A model generated the notes under the pieces. It did not search any database. It had not been told where the DNA came from and worked only from the letters and a program-made list of their open reading frames with translations. Positions 3,133 to 15,992 of a stretch of DNA of 29,362 nucleotides are shown piece by piece (position 1 is the stretch's first letter; the number at the start of each line of letters is the position of its first letter). This stretch comes from Gracilariopsis chorda (lineage: Eukaryota > Rhodophyta > Florideophyceae > Gracilariales > Gracilariaceae). Location: contig NBIV01000993.1 of the NCBI GenBank assembly GCA_003194525.1, forward strand, positions 1 through 29,362, in the 5' to 3' direction. Position numbers and translations under genes: made by a program.

Positions 3133-3739
3133 TTAATCTTCCAGTATCAATGGGCGTCGGCGATAGAGTTTCAATGTCCTTGCATGAATAAGTTGTCTTG
3201 TCACTCTACCGTGCATACTTTTTAGTTCATAGCGAGGGTGATTGGCGCTGGTCACACGGCATGGGCCGAAGTACTTGGATGTAAAGGCCGGTCATTTCTT
3301 AGCAGGGTTAAGTGCTTTGCCTTTGCAGATGAGCGCCTCATCACCAACTTTAAATGTGATAATTCGCGTATGTCTAGTCTTCGGTTGAGATTGATCTTCA
3401 ATCCTCTTGAATCTTCTCGAAATCAAAGTATCTAGTTCCAATTTCCGATGAGTCTCAGTGGCAGCTAGAAGTAATGGGGTGGCGTCATCATTAGTCATTC
3501 GGGAGGAATTCCGTACAGGAGTTCAAAAGGTGAACTGCCTCCTCGAAGTGAACGGCGCCGATATCCGTATAGGACACCGAGAATTGCTTCATCCCAAGTC
3601 TTCTGAGACTCTAAAACAGTTTTTCTCATAGCATTCTTCAAAGTTCCAATCATCCTCTCAGCTCTTCCATTTGACATTGGAGCATAGGCCAATACGGTTT
3701 TCCATACAATGCCATGCTCACTCGTAAAGTTCGTTAAAG
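3133..3739 (-). pseudogene. Integrase C-terminal relic (gypsy/Ginger type)
   Basis: On the minus strand, starting at the LTR junction, the reading shows the end of an integrase core: Ala-Tyr-Ala-Pro-Met-Ser-Asn-Gly-Arg-Ala-Glu-Arg-Met, where the Glu is the last catalytic acid of the DDE triad, followed by a Tyr-Gly-Tyr-Arg-Arg-Arg block and Ser-Pro-Phe-Glu-Leu-Leu-Tyr-Gly. A GPY/F-type module follows (Tyr-Phe-Gly-Pro-Cys-Arg-Val). The frame is broken at about 3495-3505 in a run of Cs (one base short), and an in-frame TGA lies at 3292-3294; the last stop is at 3133. The two catalytic Asp residues are missing because the gene is cut at 3739. It is dead. It converges on the peptidase ORF and may be the transposase of the same element. 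Confidence 0.75.
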
Positions 3740-4544
3740 TGAAGTGCAACGCCCTCAGGGAGGGATTCTGGGTACTTGAACGCTTTCTCGATATTATCGG
3801 TTGTGTAGTGTGTATATGAACTACGCCCCACAATGGTGGGTATGGACACGTGGGACACGGTTTTGGGTCAATTGGCAGTTGGCCATAGTAGTGGATGTTG
3901 CCACGGAATGTGGAGTATTTTAGTTAATTTTATTTATTATTTTCACACCCATTTCTGGGAAGCTAGTACTTAGTGCGACGGCGCACTGCCGTCGCACCAG
4001 TAAACCTTCCCCAACAAGGGACCCCAACCTGGGGAATTGGCTCTGAGCTTTACCGCCTCCGCGTGTTCTCAACTCCTCCTTGGAGGGAAGCACCGTAGTG
4101 TACGGAAGTTCACCCCCTTGCACATCTAAAGGAGACCCATCATTGGGAGTACTAATTGTTCCAATCATATTGGTGTTTCGCCCTGTATAGGGAGTCCTGT
4201 CCACCGGCATTGCCGTATCTACTCGTCGCTCTCGCGACCCACTCGTCCTTCCTCTTTCCCCTTTTTAGGGTAGCACCTCCCGCTATCCGCGGCCTCTTGT
4301 GCGCATCCGCTCACACACCCCCACTTACGTGGAAACATACCTCTACTGAGGATCACGCCCCGCTCACGCGGATACCGATTCTTCGCCTTCACCTCCCTGC
4401 GCGAGTCGCGACAGGTGTCCCTGGTCTTACAAACCGGCTTCGCCGTGACACCTCTGGGAGGGCTCTACCCATCTGGGTTCACCTCGTGAGAGGAAGATCC
4501 CGGACGTCTTTCGGTGTTTTTCCCCTTTGGGGCATTGCACCACA
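3740..4544 (+). repeat. 5' LTR (805 bp)
   Basis: Begins TGAAGTGCAACGCC and ends GCACCACA; matches 14434-15240 almost base for base. The boundary is fixed by divergence of the two copies on both sides and by the PBS starting 3 nt later. Differences include C/T at 3788, A/G at 3877, T/C at 3886 and small indels in homopolymer runs. It has many mini-hairpins, for example GACGGC-GCACT-GCCGTC near 3978. Confidence 0.93.
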
Positions 4545-4547
4545 AAG

Positions 4548-4565
4548 TGGTCTCCTGACTTAGAA
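4548..4565 (+). other. Primer-binding site (tRNA-primed minus-strand synthesis)
   Basis: TGGTCTCCTGACTTAG begins 3 nt after the LTR. Its complement ends in CCA and splits into a 7-nt acceptor half, a discriminator A, a 5-nt T-stem and a T-loop-like tail, so it has correct tRNA 3'-end geometry beyond the usual short match. The acceptor strand it implies starts with C, and I cannot name the tRNA. Confidence 0.7.
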
Positions 4566-4649
4566 TCGGTTTTTGTTTTCCCTCTTACGAGGTTTGTTTT
4601 CATTCACCGGAAGTTCCGTGATCGTTTCCCGTCGTAACGGTATTTTCTC

Positions 4650-6823
4650 ATGTCGAGAAATCCCTCCGACGCGGAGCCAGTGGTTACGCGTAGTCGCTCC
4701 CGCGACAACGCGGACACTTCCGAAGTTCGGTTCGTACCCCGTATCCCTATACGGACAAGTTCCAGCCGTGCTGGCGCCGCTTCATCGCGGAATGATACCC
4801 CCGGCAGGGAACCCCGGAACTTCCTTTTGCCCTCGTTATCACCCCCGCAGGGGAATGCAGCATCGACTCCGGCTGTTGCCGCAGTGCCCCAGGCACCCCG
4901 GCCTGCTCCCGCTGTCGCGGCTTCAAGCCCCCGTGGAACGGGCGATAACACCCCCCCGGGGACTTCCCTGGAATCCCAGGTCCGCGCTCTGTGGACCGCC
5001 CATGACACCCTTGTAGGGAAACTAAAATCCCTCCAAGAGGTGGTCTCGGCAACCCCCGTAGAGGAGGTCGCCGAGGAACTCCGTATTTTACGGTCTGACG
5101 TCAACTCCGTGTTGGAGAGTTTGGGACAACCCGCCGCCTTCATCGAAGGAGTTGAAGCCCGATTTGATCGGATTGGTGCCCGCCTGGAGACGCTGGAGCA
5201 GTTCGTCCTCATGGACAAACCATCCCCGGGTGATCCGGTAAACGAGGCATCGCACAACGACCAGCTTGCTGGGAAGAAGAAACGCCGTCACCGACGGAAA
5301 CATCACCGAAAATATTCGGACTCCGATTCTTCGACATCGTCGGACTCACCCCGAAACCATTCGGTTAGCTCGAGCTCCTCGGACTCCGACTCGGAGGACG
5401 AGAAGCGAGGCTACTCCTCCCGCTCGAAGCGGTCATCGGCCACTGAAGGTGTGGTCCGAACCCGCCAGAAGGGGAGAAGACACCCCGGTCTCCGGGAATT
5501 GAAACCGACAAACCCGGATTACCGGAAGCTTTTATCATACCGGTACTACCGGCTTGAAGATTCGTCACTTGGACGTACGCCCCGTGGTACGGGAAAGGTG
5601 CGAGAATGCATTAAGCGAATGCAGCTCTCGCTCCGCAACCAGTATTTTACTGGAGAGGACCCAGTCCTAGTACTGGATTTCCTATCCCGCTTTGTAGCGG
5701 AGGCCGATATCCTCGGTATGAATGAGGGACAAGCCTATTTGGCTTTACCGTATTTCTTACGGGAGTGGCCGAGGACCAATACACCTCTGTCCGAGGATCT
5801 TCTCGCGCCTCCGAGGGAGGAGTTACTTGCTGGCCGGAGGCTGTGCAGTATCTTCTGCGCTCCTACGCCACCAACACCGCTATTCAGCAGGCTATCCTCG
5901 CTTTGCGAGATACACGCCAGCGTGCTGGAGAGACCGAGACCGATTACTCGGTGCGCCTTAACAAGGCTTTCCACAGATGTGGTAACGTATACCCCGCTGG
6001 GGAGCGCAGTACCATGTTCATTGATGGTCTTGACCCGGCAATCCGGAGTTTAGTTACCCGTTATCGGGAGGACAAGCGAAGGATCACCTACCTCGAGCTG
6101 GTCCAACACGCTCGAGCGGAAGGGGATGCACTTCGTGCAAGAACTCCGAACAATCGGTCTAAATCCGCCAAGGCGTTGTTGCTGGAAAGCGAAGCTTCCT
6201 CTCTCCCGCTCACCGCGGATGGGAACCCTGGACAGGGATTTGATACCGTGCATTTAGCGCAGGGGGATGGTGTGTCGATACCCACCAGTGAGTTACCGTC
6301 AACGACGGAGATGACCCATGATACGGGAACAGAAGATCCCGTTCTATACGGTGGTAACAGTCGGGTTCAACCCCAACGACTCCCGTTTTCAAACGGTCAA
6401 TCCCGTTATCAACGGCCTGGATGGACTGACACCCGCCCTGCGGTTCGCTTCTCCGATACTCGGAATAATAATCCGCGTGTCGCGGTGCTGGCTCTCATTT
6501 GCCACCTGTGCTATGCCCATGGCCATACCTCTCCTCAGTGTATTTGTTCACTGAAGGATATGGCCAAGGTGGTGGCAAATTATGAGGCCCTCACTCCAGA
6601 GGAGAAACGTTCCGTCCCGACGGCTTCCTACCTCCGTGCTAAAACGGACTTTTCTCACGCCCTACCACAGACCCCGCGTGCGCGGCAAGCTTCATACACC
6701 CCGATTCGGGAGATCACGCAACCATCCGTTGCAACCCCCGCTTATGCGGATAGAAACCCCCGTCAACGGGATGAAGCACTCGTTGTCGAGGAAACCAACC
6801 CACCGCCGAAGGCGGAAAACTAA
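4650..6823 (+). CDS. gag: Gag polyprotein (with one frame change)
   Basis: The ATG at 4650 opens a frame running to 6053, but coding sense moves to the -1 frame between about 5740 and 5765 and then runs to the TAA at 6821-6823. The first half has a Pro/Ala-rich N-terminus, a coiled-coil-like Leu/Glu segment (about residues 110-190) and a strongly basic then Ser/Asp-rich tract (about residues 208-265). After the shift there is a capsid-like helical region with the retrotransposon-gag look (Trp-Pro-Glu-Ala...Tyr-Ser-Val-Arg-Leu) and a zinc knuckle of form CX2CX4HX4C at about 6498-6541, used in packaging RNA. The frame change is either a one-base deletion, an assembly error, or -1 recoding; no classic slippery heptamer is present. 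The start codon lies in the loop of a small hairpin. Confidence 0.8.
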
Positions 6824-7069
6824 CTGAGGGAGTCTCCCCTTTGGGAGAGGCGTCCTCAAAAACGAGGCTGTTGGCGCCCGAGGCGTCCTCGCCTGGCTCC
6901 CGGTGAAAGTCCTCTCGAGGAAAGACACCGCTGACGCGGACTCTGCGCACCTCGGTGTGTTGCGTCGCCCGTGGATACGCAGTAAAAATCCCCGGATTCC
7001 CGGTAGAGTCTTGGTCTTGGCCAAGCGCAATTATAAGGTCTATGCCGACCTTGGCCTTGACCCCAGTTT
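6824..7069 (+). other. Gag-pol junction with an open stretch in another frame
   Basis: The gag and pol frames are the same here but separated by several stops. The frame used by the first half of gag is open from about 6828 to the TGA at 7074 and reads like protein (basic, with Lys-Val-Tyr-Ala-Asp-Leu near its end). It leads directly into the protease, overlapping the pol ATG at 7070. It may be the true N-terminus of Pol, entered by frame change at both ends, or decayed coding DNA. Confidence 0.4.
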
Positions 7070-10000
7070 ATGGTGAGGTTTCTCACCGTCCTGGATACAG
7101 GTGCAGGCCCCAACTTTGTTGTGGAATCATTGTTACCCCCGCTTGTGCGGTCGCGTATCCGCTCTGACGCGGTCCCCGACATTTCGGATGCGAACAACAA
7201 TCCGTTACAAACGGTGGGCACAGTGGACCTCTTCGTGAGACTTGGTACATCTGTGGTGAAGTTGGACTTCATCGTTTGCCGTTCACTGGCAGCACCAGTC
7301 ATACTGGGATGTGATTACTGCGACAGATTTGTCGACGCAATCAGGCCCCGCCTCAGGCGTGTAGAACTTGACGACGGATCGTCGGTTCCGATTGTTCGCC
7401 GCCCGCTAAAGCGGTCCTCTCGGAAACAAGTTCCGCTCCCTGCTGCGCAGGAACCACCGCCCGCGTCCCGCGAGTCCACCAAGCTCCGCGTCGCTGCCTC
7501 GGTTTCTATACCGGCTGAGTCCCAAGTCTGGGTACAGGTAAATTCCCGTCAACACGGTCTTCGGGTTATACAACCCCTCGCCTCGTTGTACGAGAAATCC
7601 CAGCTGGCGCTGGCTAATGGAATTGTCTCCATTTCCCCGGATGTTCCTTTCCGGATATTGGTTGCCAACCTTGGCAAACACCCCCAGTATCTGGTCAAAC
7701 ACCAAGTAATTGGGAGTGTAACCCCCCATCCTATGGGAATGCTGCCAACGAAGATGACAGCCGCCGATGTACTCGGAGTTACCATCTCTTCTGAGGAGTT
7801 CACCCCGCCGTCCGAAGACGTCAAGTCTAAGGAGGGGGAGGAAACCGCTACTTCAGCGTCGAACATACCGAGTAACTCGGAATTGCGAACCACACCTGTT
7901 CCACAGGACAATGCTCCATCGAGCAATGACCGGATTGATCCGGAAAAAGCACTTGAAGCGCTGGACTTCAGCCACGTGCCAGAGTCGCACCGCGACAAAC
8001 TCCGTACTATGTTACGGGAATTCACCACAATGTGGGATGGCTCGCTTGGCGAGATTGATGCAACGGAACACCGGATCGATTTAATCCCCGGTGCGCGACC
8101 GGTTGCACAACCCCCTTACAGGGCAGGTCCGAAAGCTCGGGAAGAGGAGCAGTCCCAGGTGGACAAGATGCTCCGCGCAGGTGTGATTGAGCCCGCTCAA
8201 TCGCCCTGGGCATCCCCAGTTGTACTGGCTTTAAAGGCTGACGGAACCTGGAGGTTCTGTGTCGACTACCGCCGGCTCAATGCCGTGACTGTTAGGGACA
8301 CGTACCCCATCCCTCGTATGGACGAGTGCATTGACTCCCTTGGAGACGCCACCGTGTTCACGGCCCTTGATGCCAATTGGGGATATTGGCAAGTACCTGT
8401 CAGACAGGAGGATCGCGACAAAACCGCATTCACCTGCCATGCAGGAACGTACCGCTTCAAGCGGATGCCATTTGGGTTAACCAACGCCCCCGCCACCTTT
8501 CAGCGTGCAGTAGATATTCTACTCAACCGCTTTAAGTGGCGGAGTTGTCTGGTCTACCTTGATGATATTATCATCTTCTCCAACTCGTTGGACGACCATC
8601 TCACTCACGTCCGAGACGTGCTGACCGTACTCCGCGATGCGGGAATTACCCTCAAGTTGAGGAAATGCGAGTTTTTCACAGATACTGTGAAGTATCTGGG
8701 TCACATTATCCGTCCTGGACGGTTAGCGATCGAGAAAGCTCGAGTCAAATCCCTCGTTGAGGCGAAAGAACCCCGTACTCAAACGGAACTGCGCTCCTTT
8801 CTGGGGCTGGTCAACGTCTATCGACGGTTTATCCCGAACTTTTCGGATACTGCAGCGCCCCTGAACGCGTTGTTGCGAAAGGGGAACCCCCCAAAACTGG
8901 GAACATTTACGCCCGAGCAATCGGAAGCTTTTAACTTCTTAAAGGAGGCTGTCACATCAGCACCAATCCTACATCTCCCAAAACTTGGGTTGCCATACTC
9001 CGTAGATACGGACTCGAGCGACTACCAAGTCGGGTGTGCTCTTTTTCAAACCACCCCCGAGGGGGAACGACATCCAATTGGTTATTGGTCACGTTCGCTC
9101 AATGTTCATGAGCGGAACTACTCCGTATCGGAGAAAGAGTGCCTCGCCGTCGTATGGGCGATGACCACTCTGCGCCCCTACCTTATGGGAATTCACTTCA
9201 CCGTGTACACGGATCATTCCTCATTGAGGTGGTTGATGAATATCTCCGACCCGTCGGGACGCCTCATGCGCTGGAGACTCCGCCTCGCGGAATATGACTT
9301 TCAAGTCATTTATAAAAAGGGTGCGCAGAACACTCAGGCCGACGCTTTATCGCGGTTACCCACAAGTGGGGAAGCACTCCCAACGGAGGATGATGAAGTC
9401 CCATGCTTCATGGCTATAGACCCGGATGATCCGGAACATGCCGTCGAGGCTAGGCCAGAAACCTGGGACGAGGATGCTGATTTTGACGAACTACTCGCAT
9501 CGCGAGATAAATCTGAGAACCCGTTACCGGGAAACTTTGTACCGGTATCACCGGAAGAAATGATCCGAGAACAATTCGGCGACCCATTCTGTACGAGAAT
9601 TCGTGCCCGTATCAACGGTGGTGAAGATCTCCCTTTCGGGGTAAACGACAAAGGCTACCTCGTAAGAAAGGTCGAAGCCCGCCCACAGATTGTGGTACCA
9701 CATTCCCTGCAATCGCGGGTGTTACATCTATCACACTACGCCCCCATTGGAGGTCACCCAGGTGGGAGGAAACTCTACCTAACCCTGCGAAGGGATTTCT
9801 ATTGGCCCGCAATGGCGGTGGATTGCTACGCAACTGTGCGGTTTTGTAGCGAATGCGCGAAGAATCGCGTCAAACTCCGCAAAAATGCGAAGAAGATGAA
9901 ACTATTCCCCGCAAGGGCGCCGCTCGAGTTTATCGCGATCGATATTCTCGGACCATTACTCACCACGAAACGTGGAAACAAGTTTCTACTTGTCATTACC

Positions 10001-11554
10001 GACCGCTTTTCTAAGCTGGTACGGACTGTCCCTCTTCGGAGGATAACCGCTCTCACGGTGGCCCAGGCTCTGGTGACGCACTGGATTTTTGTCTACGGTC
10101 CCCCTGTAGAGGTGCTCTCTGACAACGGGAAGCAGTTCGTGAGCAAGTTCTTCCAGGATGTTTGTCGCATCCTGGATGTCAAGAACTTGTTCACGACTAC
10201 CTACCACCCCCAGTGTAATGGGCAAGTTGAACGGTTTAACCGGACGTTACTCGCGGCGTTACGTTCCTACGTCGCTGACCACCCAGCGAATTGGGATCTC
10301 TACGCTGATGCGGTAACCTACGCGTACAATACGCAGGTACACCGGACTACCGGAGTTTCGCCATTCGAGTTAGTTCTATCTAGAACACCCCCGCCTGTGG
10401 CGCTGGAACCCCAAGCTACCTTGGACAATTTCCCATCTGTGGGTATCTACCGGCAGCAATGGAAGCGATGGCTTTCCAAGCTGGTCCCCGCTGCGCGGAA
10501 GTCTATGGCACGGGCCCAAGCCGCTTACAAGCGGGATTTTGACGCTCGCGTGCGAGGAAAACCATCCCCGATTCGGGCAAATAACTACGTCTTCATCAGG
10601 AAGGAATACTACAACCCGGAACGGGAGAAGCGTCACAAACTCTCACCTGTGGCGGATGGACCCTTCAAGGTGATCTCTGTTAACACCGACACTGTCGTGG
10701 TAGAGATGGGGGACACGCACGAACGGATTTCCCGTGATCGTGTTGTCCTCGCCCCTCCTCCCTCGTCAGAGGTAGTCCTGGATCCAGGCAACCCCGTTTC
10801 TACGGACTCCGCTACACCGGAACAATCCGGGAGTACTAGACCTACGGTACTACCACACCCCAGCCGGGGACTCTCAGACCTACCGACTCTGTCGGACTCA
10901 CCGGCTCAGCCGGGTAATTCGGGCCCCTCAGCGCCCGCCCCTACCACGTCTGCCCCACTGGCGCGCATCTATACCCGCCAGGCGGGGAATGTTATCCCTT
11001 ATCCCGCCGCTCCGTCTAAGGAGGGGGAGGAGAACACTCGTTTTCGAGGAACGATATCACCGTCGCAACGGGAAACACACCGTAACATACGGAACACTGA
11101 CCGTGGAGCACGGAGTATGTCACGCGACACTAATCCCCCGTTCCCGGGCAGTGCTGTGCAACAGGAACCAGACGCACAGGCCCTGCAAAAGCGGCAAATA
11201 CACCGTTTGTCCCGGGAAAACGAGAAGCCTCACTCCAATACCGCAGCAGCGGAAAGGCAATCGCCCGATGCCTCGAAGCCGCCGTTGGCGGAAGTCCCCG
11301 CGGAAGCGGTTCAATCAGGTCGATCAGACCCGCGCCCTGCGGAGAAGGGGCGCCCAGATACGCCGGCCTCACAGGGGAATACCCACACCCCTCTTGGGGA
11401 AAAAGGCGGCCAAGCTGCAGTCGAAGCTTTAAGCCCTGGCTCGCAAGCACCAGAAACGCCTCCCGTCGTTGACGGAATCAAAGCCCCCGCTACGGGAATA
11501 ATTTGCGCCAACCCCCGCATCGCTGCGGCGAAGAACCGAGGAACTCGGGAATAA
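7070..11554 (+). CDS. pol: Pol polyprotein: protease, reverse transcriptase, RNase H, integrase
   Basis: A single 1494-codon frame. An aspartic protease motif Leu-Asp-Thr-Gly-Ala-Gly is at residues about 9-14. Reverse transcriptase spans roughly 335-560, with Tyr-Leu-Asp-Asp at about 495. RNase H runs from Asp-Thr-Asp-Ser-Ser (about 644) to Tyr-Thr-Asp-His-Ser-Ser (about 712). Integrase has an HHCC zinc-binding region (about 885-933) and a DDE core with Asp in Ile-Asp-Ile-Leu-Gly (about 957), Asp in Ser-Asp-Asn-Gly (about 1016) and Glu in Gln-Val-Glu-Arg-Phe-Asn (about 1051), followed by a Tyr-lacking basic C-terminal module. The last 250 residues are Pro/Ser-rich, unstructured linker. All catalytic residues I looked for are present, so the enzymes could be active. 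The ATG at 7070 is close to the protease active site, so the natural start may be upstream. Confidence 0.92.
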   Translation: MVRFLTVLDTGAGPNFVVESLLPPLVRSRIRSDAVPDISDANNNPLQTVGTVDLFVRLGTSVVKLDFIVCRSLAAPVILGCDYCDRFVDAIRPRLRRVELDDGSSVPIVRRPLKRSSRKQVPLPAAQEPPPASRESTKLRVAASVSIPAESQVWVQVNSRQHGLRVIQPLASLYEKSQLALANGIVSISPDVPFRILVANLGKHPQYLVKHQVIGSVTPHPMGMLPTKMTAADVLGVTISSEEFTPPSEDVKSKEGEETATSASNIPSNSELRTTPVPQDNAPSSNDRIDPEKALEALDFSHVPESHRDKLRTMLREFTTMWDGSLGEIDATEHRIDLIPGARPVAQPPYRAGPKAREEEQSQVDKMLRAGVIEPAQSPWASPVVLALKADGTWRFCVDYRRLNAVTVRDTYPIPRMDECIDSLGDATVFTALDANWGYWQVPVRQEDRDKTAFTCHAGTYRFKRMPFGLTNAPATFQRAVDILLNRFKWRSCLVYLDDIIIFSNSLDDHLTHVRDVLTVLRDAGITLKLRKCEFFTDTVKYLGHIIRPGRLAIEKARVKSLVEAKEPRTQTELRSFLGLVNVYRRFIPNFSDTAAPLNALLRKGNPPKLGTFTPEQSEAFNFLKEAVTSAPILHLPKLGLPYSVDTDSSDYQVGCALFQTTPEGERHPIGYWSRSLNVHERNYSVSEKECLAVVWAMTTLRPYLMGIHFTVYTDHSSLRWLMNISDPSGRLMRWRLRLAEYDFQVIYKKGAQNTQADALSRLPTSGEALPTEDDEVPCFMAIDPDDPEHAVEARPETWDEDADFDELLASRDKSENPLPGNFVPVSPEEMIREQFGDPFCTRIRARINGGEDLPFGVNDKGYLVRKVEARPQIVVPHSLQSRVLHLSHYAPIGGHPGGRKLYLTLRRDFYWPAMAVDCYATVRFCSECAKNRVKLRKNAKKMKLFPARAPLEFIAIDILGPLLTTKRGNKFLLVITDRFSKLVRTVPLRRITALTVAQALVTHWIFVYGPPVEVLSDNGKQFVSKFFQDVCRILDVKNLFTTTYHPQCNGQVERFNRTLLAALRSYVADHPANWDLYADAVTYAYNTQVHRTTGVSPFELVLSRTPPPVALEPQATLDNFPSVGIYRQQWKRWLSKLVPAARKSMARAQAAYKRDFDARVRGKPSPIRANNYVFIRKEYYNPEREKRHKLSPVADGPFKVISVNTDTVVVEMGDTHERISRDRVVLAPPPSSEVVLDPGNPVSTDSATPEQSGSTRPTVLPHPSRGLSDLPTLSDSPAQPGNSGPSAPAPTTSAPLARIYTRQAGNVIPYPAAPSKEGEENTRFRGTISPSQRETHRNIRNTDRGARSMSRDTNPPFPGSAVQQEPDAQALQKRQIHRLSRENEKPHSNTAAAERQSPDASKPPLAEVPAEAVQSGRSDPRPAEKGRPDTPASQGNTHTPLGEKGGQAAVEALSPGSQAPETPPVVDGIKAPATGIICANPRIAAAKNRGTRE

Positions 11555-12398
11555 CGCGCGCCATCGCACGCTCGAAACCGGTCGTACCGGACGCTGCTCC
11601 TCCTCACGGATATGGTGCACTGCGCTCAGCGGCATTTCCCCTGAAAAGGGTGTCATCGGCACCTGCCCGGAACCCCCAGAGGGGAATTTTGACCAAAATA
11701 CCGGTGTACCGGAGTTAGCCCCAGGCAACCCGTCAGTAGCCGGGGACACCACGGCATCGCCGGAACGTATGGTGCAGAGCGCTCGTGCGCCTGGCAGGGA
11801 GGCGGTTTGCCACCCAATCACCGTGTCGCACGGGACCCCCCAGGGGATTGTGGAAATGCCGATCCCGCAGGAGCGGTCATCTTCCCGCAAACTCGCGGTT
11901 CGTGCGCTCAACCGCGAAGGCGGAACCCAAGTCCCCCGCCGACTGGCGGTCCGCCCGGCCTACCGTGAAGACGGAAACAACGACACCCCTCTGGGGAACG
12001 ACTTGCCGGTGAAAACCGTGGCACCACACACCCTCTTGAGGGATATTTTCCCGCATGAGCAGCGGCCACTAGGACAGCGCACGGCAACGTCGGAGTTATC
12101 GCCGAACACCCTGCTAAGGGACATTATACCGCACCGCGGGCAACCCTCGCCAGGGATTACAACCACCACCCGGCACGGCCGGCAGGTCTACGAACGAGAG
12201 TTCGTAGTAGACCGACTTGTCGGACACACCTGGGACCAGGATGGTATTCTACAATACCGCGTCCGCTGGTACGGGTACGACCCCAGTGGGGATACGTGGG
12301 AGCCAATGGAACACCTCCCACGGTCGCAGGTCGTGCGATACCACCGTCAAACGGGAACTGCAGCTCCAGCCACGCTGGTAAATGCCCAAGTTGGGTAA
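11502..12398 (+). CDS. Pol C-terminal extension with chromodomain
   Basis: The frame -1 to pol is open from 11502 to the TAA at 12398, overlapping the end of pol by about 50 bp; the first ATG in it is 11769. About the first 220 codons are Pro/Arg-rich low complexity. Near 12187-12330 is a chromodomain: Tyr-Glu-Arg-Glu-Phe-Val-Val-Asp, then Tyr-Arg-Val-Arg-Trp-Tyr-Gly-Tyr and Asp-Thr-Trp-Glu-Pro, which includes the aromatic residues that read methylated histone tails. In chromoviruses this domain is fused to the integrase and steers insertion to heterochromatin. Here it lies in a different frame from the integrase, so it is either joined by recoding, made separately, or split by a recent indel. 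Confidence 0.75.
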   Translation, partial: FAPTPASLRRRTEELGNNARHRTLETGRTGRCSSSRIWCTALSGISPEKGVIGTCPEPPEGNFDQNTGVPELAPGNPSVAGDTTASPERMVQSARAPGREAVCHPITVSHGTPQGIVEMPIPQERSSSRKLAVRALNREGGTQVPRRLAVRPAYREDGNNDTPLGNDLPVKTVAPHTLLRDIFPHEQRPLGQRTATSELSPNTLLRDIIPHRGQPSPGITTTTRHGRQVYEREFVVDRLVGHTWDQDGILQYRVRWYGYDPSGDTWEPMEHLPRSQVVRYHRQTGTAAPATLVNAQVG

Positions 12399-12534
12399 CG
12401 TTGCCGCGCGAGCGGAGAGCGAAAGGAAAGGATAACAAGACAAGGTCCGTCGAAGACGGGGAACTCAACCGAGAAGCACCGTTCTAAACGGGAAAGTTTA
12501 TTCAAGGGAGCAGCTAGCTCCCCACAATACTACA
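12399..12534. other. Short gap between chromodomain and antisense ORF stops
   Basis: 136 bp tail-to-tail gap. It holds the ends of two convergent reading frames and a few mini-hairpins; nothing else seen. Confidence 0.4.
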
Positions 12535-14376
12535 CTACACTAACTGGCATAGCCAGGGAAAGAAGAACCAGGAAACTGGACTAGAGGTTTCACTCACCCC
12601 CATCGTCCGGGGCGTAACCCCAGCAAGGCGGTAGGCCAACGCGTCCGCCATGGTGGTGACATCCCCCGATACCTCGGCAGCGCTAAGACCGGCACCCCGG
12701 AGGAAACGTGCGATGATTTCGTTTTCATTCGCCGTCACCCCGCTGGGGATAGAAGGTCCGGCACTTGCCGTTGAAGGGTCAGCAGCCGGCTCGGCCGGAG
12801 ATACCCCCTCTGGGAAAGCTTCCGCGCTAGCGCCGGTTTCCTCTACGTCCATCTCCCCGGGTTCTTCCGGTTCGTTATCGACCATTGGGTCATCCCCGCC
12901 GTATGCGCGGTAGTAGTCGTCAGAATCGACGTACCCCACCGGGTGGTCTTCCGGCACATGCCGGGGCGTATCGCGAAGCTCTCGCGCCTCCTCGGAGGAA
13001 ATTTCCCGGAACTCCCAGGGGTCGAAGTAGATAAAATCCCCCGCAAGGGCGGTGTTTCTACCGAGTCCCGGACCACCGGTGTTACCGCTGCCGCCATCCA
13101 GACGACCGCTTTGCTCCAGCGGGACCTCACTCCAGCTAACGCTGTCGATGTACCCAAGTAATTGGAGGACCTCTTCATTGTTGGCCTGGCCCCCAAGGGG
13201 GATGCGAAGATCCAGGTTTCGGATCGCTGCCCGCACACGCGGTTGAAGGAACCAGAGACGATACTGGTCGTACGCCTCGTTGAGGATATAAGCCGCACTG
13301 CGGGCCGCCCACTCCGTAACCACTACGGACCACAACCCCGACCGGGGATCCTGCATGAGCAGCGAACCGAGGTACGTAAGTACCGGCGGGAGTTCTATGT
13401 AGCACCCCCGGCAGGCTTCATGGAAGCGCCACCACTCGGGGAGTGCTACATACCGACCTAGTCGGTGAGGCGGCGCAATCCGCTCTATCTCCACGTTCTG
13501 ATACGGGATAAAGTACCCGAATCGGGATCGCCAACGCCGCTCGTAGCGGATGAAGTTTTGGAGAAAGTTGGACCGGTATTGCCGGGGAAGGTACCTGAAC
13601 TCCGCCCGAATAATCGGTCGCTCCCAGCAAAGGGCCTCTTGCCGCGCTGCGGGGAAATTCCTCCAAGCGAGGGTCTCGAGGCGGAACAGGTTCTCGCCGT
13701 ACCCAATCTCCCCGCGAGTGCGGAAGTAGCTAACGTCGAAGCCAAACTCCGGTGGGACCGGTACATCGAATGGAGCCCGGCTCTGCCATTGGTACGCCAT
13801 CCGCGTCAACGCGGTCTGCGCCGCAGCGACGGTCTCGCCCGAGTTTCTTCGGAGGTGGTGACGCGGAATCGCAATCCGGTGACGCCAATCCCACGATGTG
13901 GTGACTGCTCTGGGCAGATCCCCCGGAAGGGTGTCTGAACCATCCGCATAAGCGGTGACCAACCCCTCATTGAGGACAGCGACCGGGTGAAACCACGGGG
14001 CAAGGCGCAGGCGCGACGCGTGATTCCGATTCATCGGGTTGAGCCCCACCAGGGTGTTGTAGGTTGGCCAGTTGGACACCGGAGTGGTTCCGGAGGACAC
14101 CACCGAAGGTGGTAGTGCGAAGGGATGGTCGGCTGCAGCAGCCATATTCCCCGGTTGTACCGGATTTCGATCGCCCTGAGGCAGGGGAACTGACCGGAAA
14201 CCGGTGGTGTACCGCCCGAGAAGTCTCGGCGGTTGGCTGTGGCTGTTGATATGGTTGTCGTCGTTCATTTGTCCCTTTTGGAGGGTGGCTGTTGTTGTCG
14301 TTTGTGTGCTTGATGACTCTGGTGCAGAGGGATTTACCGGAGAACCGGAGACAAAGCACGCGCTTTTATCACCCAT
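12535..14376 (-). CDS. Antisense ORF of the retrotransposon, 613 codons, unknown function
   Basis: A long uninterrupted ORF on the strand opposite gag-pol, between the chromodomain ORF and the polypurine tract. It starts at 14376, 58 bp inside the 3' LTR edge, so an antisense promoter in the LTR could drive it. An alternative start is the Met-Asn-Asp-Asp near 14265. The N-terminus is Ser/Thr/Gln-rich; the middle (about residues 100-400) is rich in Arg, Trp and Tyr and looks folded; the C-terminal 180 residues are acidic (Asp/Glu-rich, with Pro-Glu-Glu-Pro and many Ala). I recognise no known domain. Some plant Ty3/gypsy elements carry antisense ORFs in the same 3' position, but similarity to them cannot be judged here. 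Its length without stops supports coding. Confidence 0.65.
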   Translation of the reverse strand: MGDKSACFVSGSPVNPSAPESSSTQTTTTATLQKGQMNDDNHINSHSQPPRLLGRYTTGFRSVPLPQGDRNPVQPGNMAAAADHPFALPPSVVSSGTTPVSNWPTYNTLVGLNPMNRNHASRLRLAPWFHPVAVLNEGLVTAYADGSDTLPGDLPRAVTTSWDWRHRIAIPRHHLRRNSGETVAAAQTALTRMAYQWQSRAPFDVPVPPEFGFDVSYFRTRGEIGYGENLFRLETLAWRNFPAARQEALCWERPIIRAEFRYLPRQYRSNFLQNFIRYERRWRSRFGYFIPYQNVEIERIAPPHRLGRYVALPEWWRFHEACRGCYIELPPVLTYLGSLLMQDPRSGLWSVVVTEWAARSAAYILNEAYDQYRLWFLQPRVRAAIRNLDLRIPLGGQANNEEVLQLLGYIDSVSWSEVPLEQSGRLDGGSGNTGGPGLGRNTALAGDFIYFDPWEFREISSEEARELRDTPRHVPEDHPVGYVDSDDYYRAYGGDDPMVDNEPEEPGEMDVEETGASAEAFPEGVSPAEPAADPSTASAGPSIPSGVTANENEIIARFLRGAGLSAAEVSGDVTTMADALAYRLAGVTPRTMGVSETSSPVSWFFFPWLCQLV

Positions 14377-14420
14377 TTTCGTCTGGGAATCCTCCGCGCC
14401 CGCGGTCGTTTTCCCGTCTT

Positions 14421-14431
14421 AAGGGGGGGGA
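14421..14431 (+). other. Polypurine tract (plus-strand primer)
   Basis: AAGGGGGGGGA, ending two bases before the TG of the 3' LTR, the standard place for plus-strand priming in LTR retrotransposons. There is no similar tract before the 5' LTR. Confidence 0.85.
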
Positions 14432-14433
14432 TA

Positions 14434-15240
14434 TGAAGTGCAACGCCCTCAGGGAGGGATTCTGGGTACTTGAACGCTTTCCCGATATTATCGGTTGTGT
14501 AGTGTGTATATGAACTACGCCCCACAATGGTGGGTATGGACACGTGGGACACGGTTTTGGGTCAATTGGCGGTTGGCCACAGTAGTGGATGTTGCCACGG
14601 AATGTGGAGTATTTTAGTTAATTTTATTTATTATTTTCACACCCATTTCTGGGAAGCTAGTACTTAGTGCGACGGCGCACTGCCGTCGCACCAGTAAACC
14701 TTCCCCAACAAGGGACCCCAACCTGGGGAATTGGCTCTGAGCTTTACCGCCTCCGCGTGTTCTCAACTCCTCCTTGGAGGGAAGCACCGTAGTGTACGGA
14801 AGTTCAACCCCCTTGCACATCTAAAGGAGACCCATCATTGGGAGTACTAATTGTTCCAATCATATTGGTGTTTCGCCCTGTATAGGGAGTCCTGTCCACC
14901 GGCATTGCCGTATCTACTCGTGGCTCTCGCGACCCACTCGTCCTTCCTCTTTCCCCTTTTTAGGGTAGCACCTCCCGCTATCCGCGGCCCTCGTGTGCGC
15001 ATCCGCTCACACACCCCCACTTACGTGGAAACATACCTCTACTGAGGATCACACCCCGCTCACGCGGATACCGATTCTTCGCCTTCACCTCCCTGCGCGA
15101 GTCGCGACAGGTGTCCCTGGTCTTACAAACCGGCTTCGCCGTGACACCTCTGGGAGGGCTCTACCCAACTGGGTTCACCTCGTGAGAGGAAGATCCCGGA
15201 CGTCTTTCGGTGTTTTCCCCCTTTGGGGCATTGCACCACA
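14434..15240 (+). repeat. 3' LTR (807 bp)
   Basis: Same start and end motifs as the 5' LTR. It has C at 14482, G at 14571 and C at 14580 where the 5' copy has T, A and T. The sequence after 15240 is unrelated to what follows the 5' LTR, fixing the boundary. Confidence 0.93.
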
Positions 15241-15580
15241 ATAAGTTCTTATTAGTGTCTAACCGCCCGGATGTAATATTGCCAAATGATTATTTTTTAA
15301 GGTTTTGAACCTTTTATACACGCGTCAGAAACTTTTTGAATCAAAATTACGTTTTTGATATCAGAAAAGGCTGTTTCCTGAAGCTTTGTAGTAAATTCGA
15401 CATAATATTCAAGCATATCTCTATTAAACCATCTGGTTTTCTTATGTTTCTGCTTCTCAGCGAGCATAAACAACAGAGGCTTAGAATTTTTGCTATACAA
15501 AAACAGGTTGCATAACTTCTACGGACTACAAAAGGCGAAAAAATCCGATCAAAATAACTAGAACTAAAGGTTGATTGTTT

Positions 15581-15650
15581 TGACCTCATATGAGGTCAGC
15601 GGTCCGATAGACACTAGTGTCTATCTGATCAGCGACCTCATATGAGGTCA
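15581..15650. repeat. 70-bp compound palindrome
   Basis: Two copies of TGACCTCATATGAGGTCA (15581-15598; 15634-15649 in slightly shorter form) flank the 20-bp perfect palindrome GATAGACACTAGTGTCTATC (15606-15625). The whole unit is itself an imperfect palindrome centred at about 15615/15616. It could extrude as a cruciform, bind a dimeric protein, or be the end of a short transposon. Confidence 0.85.
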
Positions 15651-15950
15651 ATATTAATGACTTTAGAACTTTATCAAAACCTTAAAACTTTTCCAAAAAC
15701 TTTTTCACTTTGATTTTCTCATCATGTCTTCTACGCCGGCAGCGCTGAACCATGTCCACAACACATCACCAACAGTCGTAGCTGTCACATCAAGCACTAT
15801 CGTCAAAAACATTCGTACACAATGGCTCCGTCCACAGATCTTTTTGTTCAAAGACCACCTGGTTAGCCATGTTTCAAGTTCGAAATTTGAAATGTGGGGC
15901 CATGCGGATCAGATTTCAATTTTTTTTTTTAATTTTGCGTGCCGTTGCTC

Positions 15951-15992
15951 TGACCTCATATGAGGTCAGCGCACTGGTCCGATAGACACTAG
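15951..15992. repeat. Second copy of the palindrome unit, half length
   Basis: TGACCTCATATGAGGTCA followed by GGTCCGATAGACACTAG, the same order as at 15581 but with 5 extra bases between the parts and without the right half. It lies 370 bp from the first copy in direct orientation. Confidence 0.8.

Follow-up and report, generated by a model that had tools for sequence, protein, structure and literature searches.

Why should a retrotransposon be filled with minute perfect hairpins from one end to the other? The question is raised by an element at positions 3740-15240 of contig NBIV01000993.1 of the red alga Gracilariopsis chorda (the window, that is, the whole stretch of DNA analysed, comprises 29,362 nucleotides). 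Judged from its sequence the element is a Ty3/gypsy chromovirus bounded by long terminal repeats (LTRs), since its pol frame carries reverse transcriptase (RT), RNase H and integrase and is followed by a frame with a chromodomain. A preliminary description of the window had noticed the hairpins and proposed several causes for them. We find that they far exceed chance, that they belong to one lineage of elements, and that their size, polarity and stability are narrowly limited. As an explanation we favour, at a probability of roughly 0.45, selection on the sense RNA for many fast-folding, stability-capped and self-contained hairpins, whose most likely role is insulation.

Hairpin excess along the element

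Perfect stems of 5 bp or more that enclose loops of 3-5 nt number 163 in the element, against 34.8 ± 6.7 in dinucleotide shuffles (z = 19). The shuffled element yields about one such stem per 330 bp, close to the one per 340 bp that simple arithmetic had suggested earlier. The densest stretch cited in the preliminary description, 8561-8743 on the forward strand, was said to hold seven of these stems; we found eight, of 5-8 bp, where shuffles give 0.7 ± 0.9, and as two of them overlap, seven are separate. One of the eight (8561-8575) does lie over the codons for YLDD. Synonymous-codon shuffles, scored for stems of at least 5 bp and loops of 1-5 nt, gave the same picture in every open reading frame (ORF) compared: 91 against 21.3 ± 4.9 in pol (z = 14), 39 against 8.5 in the gag-side ORF, 24 against 5.3 in the ORF at 5726-6820, 18 against 5.2 in the chromodomain ORF, and 34 against 10.7 in the antisense ORF. 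The excess thus survives the dinucleotide- and codon-preserving controls proposed as a check on it.

Hairpins run from the LTR to the antisense ORF, in coding and non-coding parts alike, and their loops start in all codon phases, as had been described. For stems of at least 4 bp and loops of 3-4 nt the density is 29-40 per kb in every large part, the untranslated LTR included (3.3-4.6 times expectation), and 22 per kb in two small pieces of 92 and 136 bp; for the flanks the figure is 7-9 per kb. Coding parts are as dense in hairpins as untranslated ones, or denser. Stems of at least 5 bp are unevenly distributed: gag, protease and RT-RNase H, at 18-20 per kb, have about twice the density of the remaining large parts, at 9-10 per kb.

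The statement that hairpins occur "every 18-34 bp" holds as a density but not as a period. The 307 non-overlapping hairpins have a mean gap of 22, a maximum of 107 nt and a coefficient of variation of 0.92, by which regular spacing is ruled out; their spacing is close to random, save that gaps under 4 nt are few. The claim that the flanking host DNA lacks the texture stands, with one qualification. In 5-bp or longer stems with loops of 3-5 nt the flanks are near their shuffles (left 15 against 11.0, right 42 against 39.2), but they exceed chance in stems of at least 7 bp (right 17 against 4.5, left 5 against 1.3). This is a texture different from that of the element, in which such long stems are not much enriched (8 against 4.2).

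The texture belongs to one element lineage

The element's own family, here called family A, is present in the genome (91.3 Mb in 1081 contigs) in no fewer than 72 copies, with 98-100% protein identity over 613 residues. Seventeen of 22 examined loci belong to a sister family, B, which shares 71-73% DNA identity with A; in a wider scoring of 150 matches, 74 counted as copies of B. The excess recurs in these related copies: stems of at least 4 bp with loops of 3-5 nt are 2.2-3.3 times enriched in 17 of 17 family-B loci, which are not independent, given their mutual identity of 96-100%, and for stems of at least 5 bp z exceeds 2 in 16 of the 17 (locus L053, z = 1.5). Eleven other lineages from the same host (nine Ty3 and two copia), obtained by clustering 41 loci and represented by one locus per cluster, gave 0.87-1.26 times expectation, with |z| at most 1.4. 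Six of 33 Ty3 control loci (L024, L027, L028, L031, L033 and L054) reached z of 2-3 on one of two measures, at no more than 1.7 times expectation. Because families A and B carry the excess and the representatives of the 11 other host lineages are at chance, the hairpin texture belongs to one element lineage and not to the host.

The element resembles the Ty3/gypsy chromoviruses (Metaviridae) in its LTRs, in the order RT-RNase H-integrase and in its downstream chromodomain. It differs from them in its hairpin texture, which the tested representatives of nine other Ty3 lineages from this genome lack, and in a long conserved antisense ORF. The earlier remark that no Ty3/gypsy family with such a texture has been described went uncontradicted: the open-access literature of one library yielded no published account of one.

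Geometry, polarity and a stability set point

Most of the excess is in stems of 4-6 bp with loops able to close at 3-4 nt (70 against 7.2 for stem 5 with loop 3; 92 against 25.6 for stem 4 with loop 4). Loops of 5-6 nt are weakly enriched, and loops of at least 7 nt show little or no excess, the largest cell being stem 5 with loop 10 (12 against 6.5). When inner pairs are collapsed, enrichment of 5-bp stems falls from 8.7-fold at loop 3 to 4.3-fold at loop 4, 1.7-fold at loop 5 and 1.0-fold at loop 6. No loop motif is shared, the commonest triplet occurring at most 4 times among 89 hairpins with stem 5 and loop 3; the elements in common are the stem ends and a flanking A.

The hairpins are strongly polar. 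Among 353 of them, overlaps included, the outer pair is C...G in 263 and G...C in 36, with A first in 27 and T first in 27, whereas 146 flank hairpins comprise 28 with C...G and 39 with G...C. Pairing is strictly Watson-Crick: neither G.U (24 against 31.3 expected) nor A.C (38 against 36.0) is in excess at the inner positions, 2-4, of stems with loops 3 and 4. At the loop-closing position G.T and A.C each occur 15 times against about 6, a surplus that shorter stems with larger loops would produce.

Stem length and composition appear to be exchanged against each other. The GC fraction falls from 0.79 in stems of 4 bp (n = 214) to 0.72 at 5 bp (n = 120), 0.50 at 6 bp (n = 15) and 0.43 at 7 bp or more (n = 4); in shuffles it is flat across lengths, at 0.64-0.65. 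How often five inner pairs are followed by a sixth varies with their GC content: 0 of 12 cases with five GC pairs, 6% of 62 with four, 10% of 48 with three, 58% of 12 with two, 3 of 3 with one and 0 of 2 with none, compared with 22-30% in shuffles where counts suffice. Since extension past sufficiently stable stems is rarer than chance, there is a stability set point with both a floor and a ceiling, at which GC-rich stems stop extending. In terms of free energy (RNA model), family A is enriched 5.5- to 7.8-fold from -3 to -7 kcal/mol and 1.55-fold below -7. A family-B copy (L062) is enriched 3.4- to 4.9-fold from -2 to -6 kcal/mol and is at chance level beyond; its ceiling is visible for the sixth pair, which is absent from all 20 cases with three or four GC pairs, but not for the fifth.

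Mutation and selection

Family A was tested in 24 copies over positions 7061-8899 and family B in 21 loci. Private mutations fall on stems and linkers at similar rates in family A (177 mutations; 0.108 per stem site, 0.092 per linker site), and they create hairpins at 0.047 against 0.044 expected (n = 172) and destroy them at 0.273 against 0.283. The corresponding figures for creation in family B are 0.058 and 0.053 (n = 396). None of 10 listed pairs of close private changes in family A exceeds the reference stretch in hairpins. Variants carried by at least 3 of the 24 copies are distributed otherwise: 1 of 21 lies in a stem (1 in 546 stem sites, 20 in 1293 other sites; p = 0.005), that is, stem variants arise in family A and fail to spread. 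The nine two-copy variants were too few for use. Among 241 fixed differences between the A subfamilies, stems changed at 0.035 or 0.029 per site and linkers at 0.053 or 0.056, the two values depending on the copy used to define the hairpins; chance hairpins with loops of 9-12 nt, taken as a control, show no such deficit. Because the shared variants of family A mostly avoid stems, purifying selection on stems fits the data best.

Individual sites are not what is preserved. Between A and B (copy L062), whose third codon positions, 45.5% identical, approach saturation, 21 of 98 hairpins are kept in place against 8 of 54 controls. As positions are conserved little beyond controls, hairpin positions turn over while their density stays. 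Shared hairpin centres (41 of 139 against 5.0 when shifted) were given no weight, since that null ignores protein conservation.

Which molecule acts

The bases beside the stems are strand-asymmetric. Of 253 hairpins in the sense part, 103 have an A at +1 and 39 have a T at -1; in the part covered by the antisense ORF the figures are 19 and 9 of 53. Predicted formation of the 307 hairpins is higher in the sense strand (0.459) than in the antisense strand (0.390; p = 0.0007). These two asymmetries favour the sense RNA as the acting molecule. Strict pairing and near-equal folding energies of the strands would agree with action as DNA, or with a requirement that each strand be able to fold.

A related phenomenon is the genome-scale ordered RNA structure (GORS) of RNA viruses, a pervasive and non-positional excess of structure through coding sequence. 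The element shares these properties and its folding energy is modestly low, as in GORS (mean z of -1.15, against -0.14 in the right flank and -0.60 in the left). It differs in being strictly Watson-Crick and C-first, with loops of 3-4 nt, a stability ceiling and a mild overall fall in energy. Ordinary RNA pairing that includes G.U, a trait of GORS, was not found, as sense-strand G.U hairpins show little or no excess. Among retrotransposons, the RNA genomes of yeast Ty3 and Ty1 were probed by SHAPE (selective 2'-hydroxyl acylation analysed by primer extension) in the study PMC11381356, which describes Ty3 RNA as a mosaic, partly structured and partly dynamic, in which up to 30% of the RNA is stable and highly structured and the genome is A-rich (about 36% A). 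As far as that account goes, the likeness is an LTR-retrotransposon RNA structured inside its coding sequence, and the difference is that the hairpins described here run throughout and are GC-rich and stability-capped.

Explanations

Under the explanation that we favour, the sense RNA would be under purifying selection for hairpins of 4-5 bp (6-7 bp if AT-rich) with loops mainly of 3-4 nt, strictly Watson-Crick pairing, a C-rich 5' arm, a G-rich 3' arm and a stability of about -3 to -7 kcal/mol. With loops so short and partners so unambiguous, the RNA would be able to refold immediately following transcription, translation or unwinding. Refolded RNA would avoid pairing in trans with antisense transcripts and small-RNA guides and would form no long duplex, and the stability ceiling would still let ribosomes and reverse transcriptase pass. 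Antisense transcripts are invoked because the element has an antisense ORF. RNA silencing is plausible in this host on the strength of its gene content, since two genes have near-complete Piwi domains and two Dicer-like ORFs have paired RNase III domains. Evasion of a nuclease or of a silencing step, another cause put forward in the preliminary description, is possible. The sense RNA as the molecule, and insulation as the function, are what we infer from the observations above. Of the earlier proposal of selection for a compact, evenly folded RNA, the core is retained, in that a folded RNA appears to be selected, and the even spacing is not.

It is possible, if somewhat short of an even chance, that the element represents a new genome-wide design of a nucleic acid, made of hundreds of exchangeable, stability-tuned, strictly Watson-Crick and C-first mini-hairpins, in which selection keeps the texture while sites turn over. 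If this is true, fitness rests on a statistical property of the RNA and not on any single site. To our knowledge, selection on genome-wide RNA structure in viruses and retroelements, and its purpose, is an open question. The signal here is unusually clean, with a size limit, a floor and ceiling visible pair by pair, a polarity, a contrast between lineages and, in family A, a contrast between private and shared variants, and its cause is testable within one host.

Several results weigh against selection on the sense RNA for insulation. Shared variants of family B are not depleted in stems (13 in 682 stem sites, 36 in 2660 linker sites), which weakens the strong version of the selection claim. 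Fisher tests of private against fixed changes in the A subfamilies gave p = 0.27 and p = 0.03 depending on the background, and between A and B there was no excess of compensatory change over control hairpins (18 of 35 against 12 of 17 doubly changed pairs). At equal predicted stability, from -1 to -6 kcal/mol, sense hairpins with G.U are enriched no more than 1.1- to 1.4-fold, unlike the ordinary pattern of selection on RNA structure. Those of the antisense strand, on which A and C bases flanking sense stems can pair as G.U, are enriched 1.1- to 3.2-fold. Loops of 5-6 nt cost little in the energy model, yet they are enriched just 1.0- to 2.3-fold. The C-first polarity is, by reasoning and not by computation, unexplained by stacking energies. 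Hairpins are not significantly more probable between their natural flanks than between shuffled ones (p = 0.16), and in the equilibrium model a hairpin is formed about 46% of the time. Folding of 120-nt segments is mildly low and nearly equal between the strands (z of -1.15 and -1.02).

The strongest rival, which we consider unlikely though far from negligible, is that the hairpins are dispersed packaging signals, about 300 weak Gag sites that guide condensation of the RNA into the particle. What the protein would recognise is an A-form stem, constant in size, that ends in CC/GG and has an unpaired A next to it. Recognition of shape would yield the narrow geometry, the excess of C-first over G-first outer pairs (263 against 36), the flanking A on the sense strand, the strict pairing and the limit on stem length, and a gag-side ORF has a zinc-knuckle-like motif. 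On these grounds dispersed Gag sites may account for polarity and geometry as well as insulation does, or better. Packaging signals dispersed along genomes are known for several RNA viruses, and PMC6281560 describes, as here, many degenerate short stem-loops across the genome; those signals differ in sharing a coat-protein motif, for example in the loop of MS2, and the loops of this element share none. Nor does a fixed footprint fit the apparent exchangeability of long AT-rich and short GC-rich stems as well as stability does, and the spacing is near random.

Less probable again is a role of the hairpins in DNA, be it single-stranded cDNA or the element's own DNA, such as strand transfer or protection of cDNA. 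It would agree with the strict Watson-Crick pairing, with no inner excess of G.T or A.C, and with the near-equal folding energies of the strands, but it is at odds with the strand-asymmetric flanking bases and with the slightly better formation in the sense RNA model, which uses RNA energies only. Folding of the nascent transcript is a still more doubtful cause: C-first hairpins would close once the G-rich arm leaves the polymerase and would block backtracking or RNA:DNA hybrids. Polarity, short loops and the span of the hairpins over the whole element would follow; the ceiling at the set point is not predicted, and a literature search that covered this idea yielded nothing.

A mutational origin, put forward in the preliminary description, is very improbable. 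If the element's RT folded back and perfected near-palindromes, strict Watson-Crick stems throughout one RT lineage would result, but private mutations in families A and B show no hairpin gain above random, and between A subfamilies stems are conserved and evolve more slowly than linkers. Untranslated parts, moreover, are no denser in hairpins, and stems extend past the set point less often than shuffles predict. Neither chance nor base composition nor codon usage is tenable as a cause, as the dinucleotide and synonymous-pol shuffles (z = 19 and 14) and the representatives of 11 other host lineages at chance rule them out.

Parts of the element and neighbouring sequences

The two LTRs (3740-4544 and 14434-15240, forward strand) are 98.8% identical over 807 columns, and both have TG...CA termini (TGAAGTGCAA...TTGCACCACA). 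With stems of at least 4 bp and loops of 3-4 nt, the 5' LTR has 27 hairpins against 6.1 expected (counted over 3740-4545) and the 3' LTR 28 against 6.2 (counted over 14434-15241). The bases before and after the LTRs, TAAAG (3735-3739) and ATAAG (15241-15245), are not an exact duplication, and the copy may be recombinant or old.

On the forward strand, the gag-side frame extends from stop to stop over 4638-6053, with its first ATG at 4650 and 51 hairpins against 13.4; it has no Pfam gag match, and the label gag is by position. The second gag-side frame (5726-6823, forward) has the zinc-knuckle-like motif, CX2CX4HX4C, spotted by eye. The pol frame (7061-11554, forward) matches the Pfam domains RVT_1 (residues 392-550), RT_RNaseH (644-745), Integrase_H2C2 (879-936) and rve (953-1050), in that order. 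The chromodomain frame (11502-12398, forward; PF00385, E = 1.6e-10) lies downstream of the integrase and has 34 hairpins against 8.7 in 11555-12398. In the window copy the gag side (4638-6823) and the junction of pol and chromodomain (11502-11554) are split across frames; in 16 of 72 listed copies the pol match lies within a single open frame of 1875-1887 codons. The closest listed protein relative is 67% identical across the RT-integrase part. One scan of viral contigs and one of genome contigs gave no relatives outside the genome, and a scan of 3700-15300 with 4227 Rfam families gave none at threshold.

The antisense ORF (12535-14418, reverse strand) encodes 627 amino acids and has 56 hairpins against 17.2. 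Searches with its protein gave no Pfam family above the cut-off and, at E values up to 1, no relative in the PDB. It is probably a real gene, since it has three protein relatives at 37-60% identity, one of them a hypothetical protein of Gracilariopsis chorda, and 43 of 70 scored genome matches have no internal stop.

In the right flank a perfect palindrome with the core GACCTCATATGAGGTC occurs three times within 400 bp (15581-15598, 15634-15649 and 15950-15969), and a further palindrome of 20 nt lies beside these at 15606-15625. The adjoining GT27 glycosyltransferase gene is 76% identical to that of Gracilaria domingensis and 74% to that of Agarophyton chilense, its best match being 88%, which marks the host as a gracilarialean red alga. 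A search for COX1 of the host turned up two weak fragments, both under the cut-off.

Elsewhere in the genome, other Ty3 families are arranged head to tail (G000:C883, C509, C755, C819 and C573). Their RNase H matches recur at intervals of about 5.68 or 6.35 kb, and the arrays look as if copies shared LTRs. A multi-copy repeat, with units about 8 kb apart on contigs C483, C648, C777 and C944, holds two fragments of a host Argonaute-like gene (L080) in opposite orientation. In the one copy compared, L079 (G000:C648:700-1700), the fragments match L080 at 84% (279 bp) and 79% (181 bp), and there is an inverted repeat of 83 bp at 88%. By its arrangement the repeat could be a source of hairpin RNA against Argonaute, or an old captured fragment. 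There are 44 matches to Piwi fragments across 12 contigs, among them C483, C777, C944 and C626.

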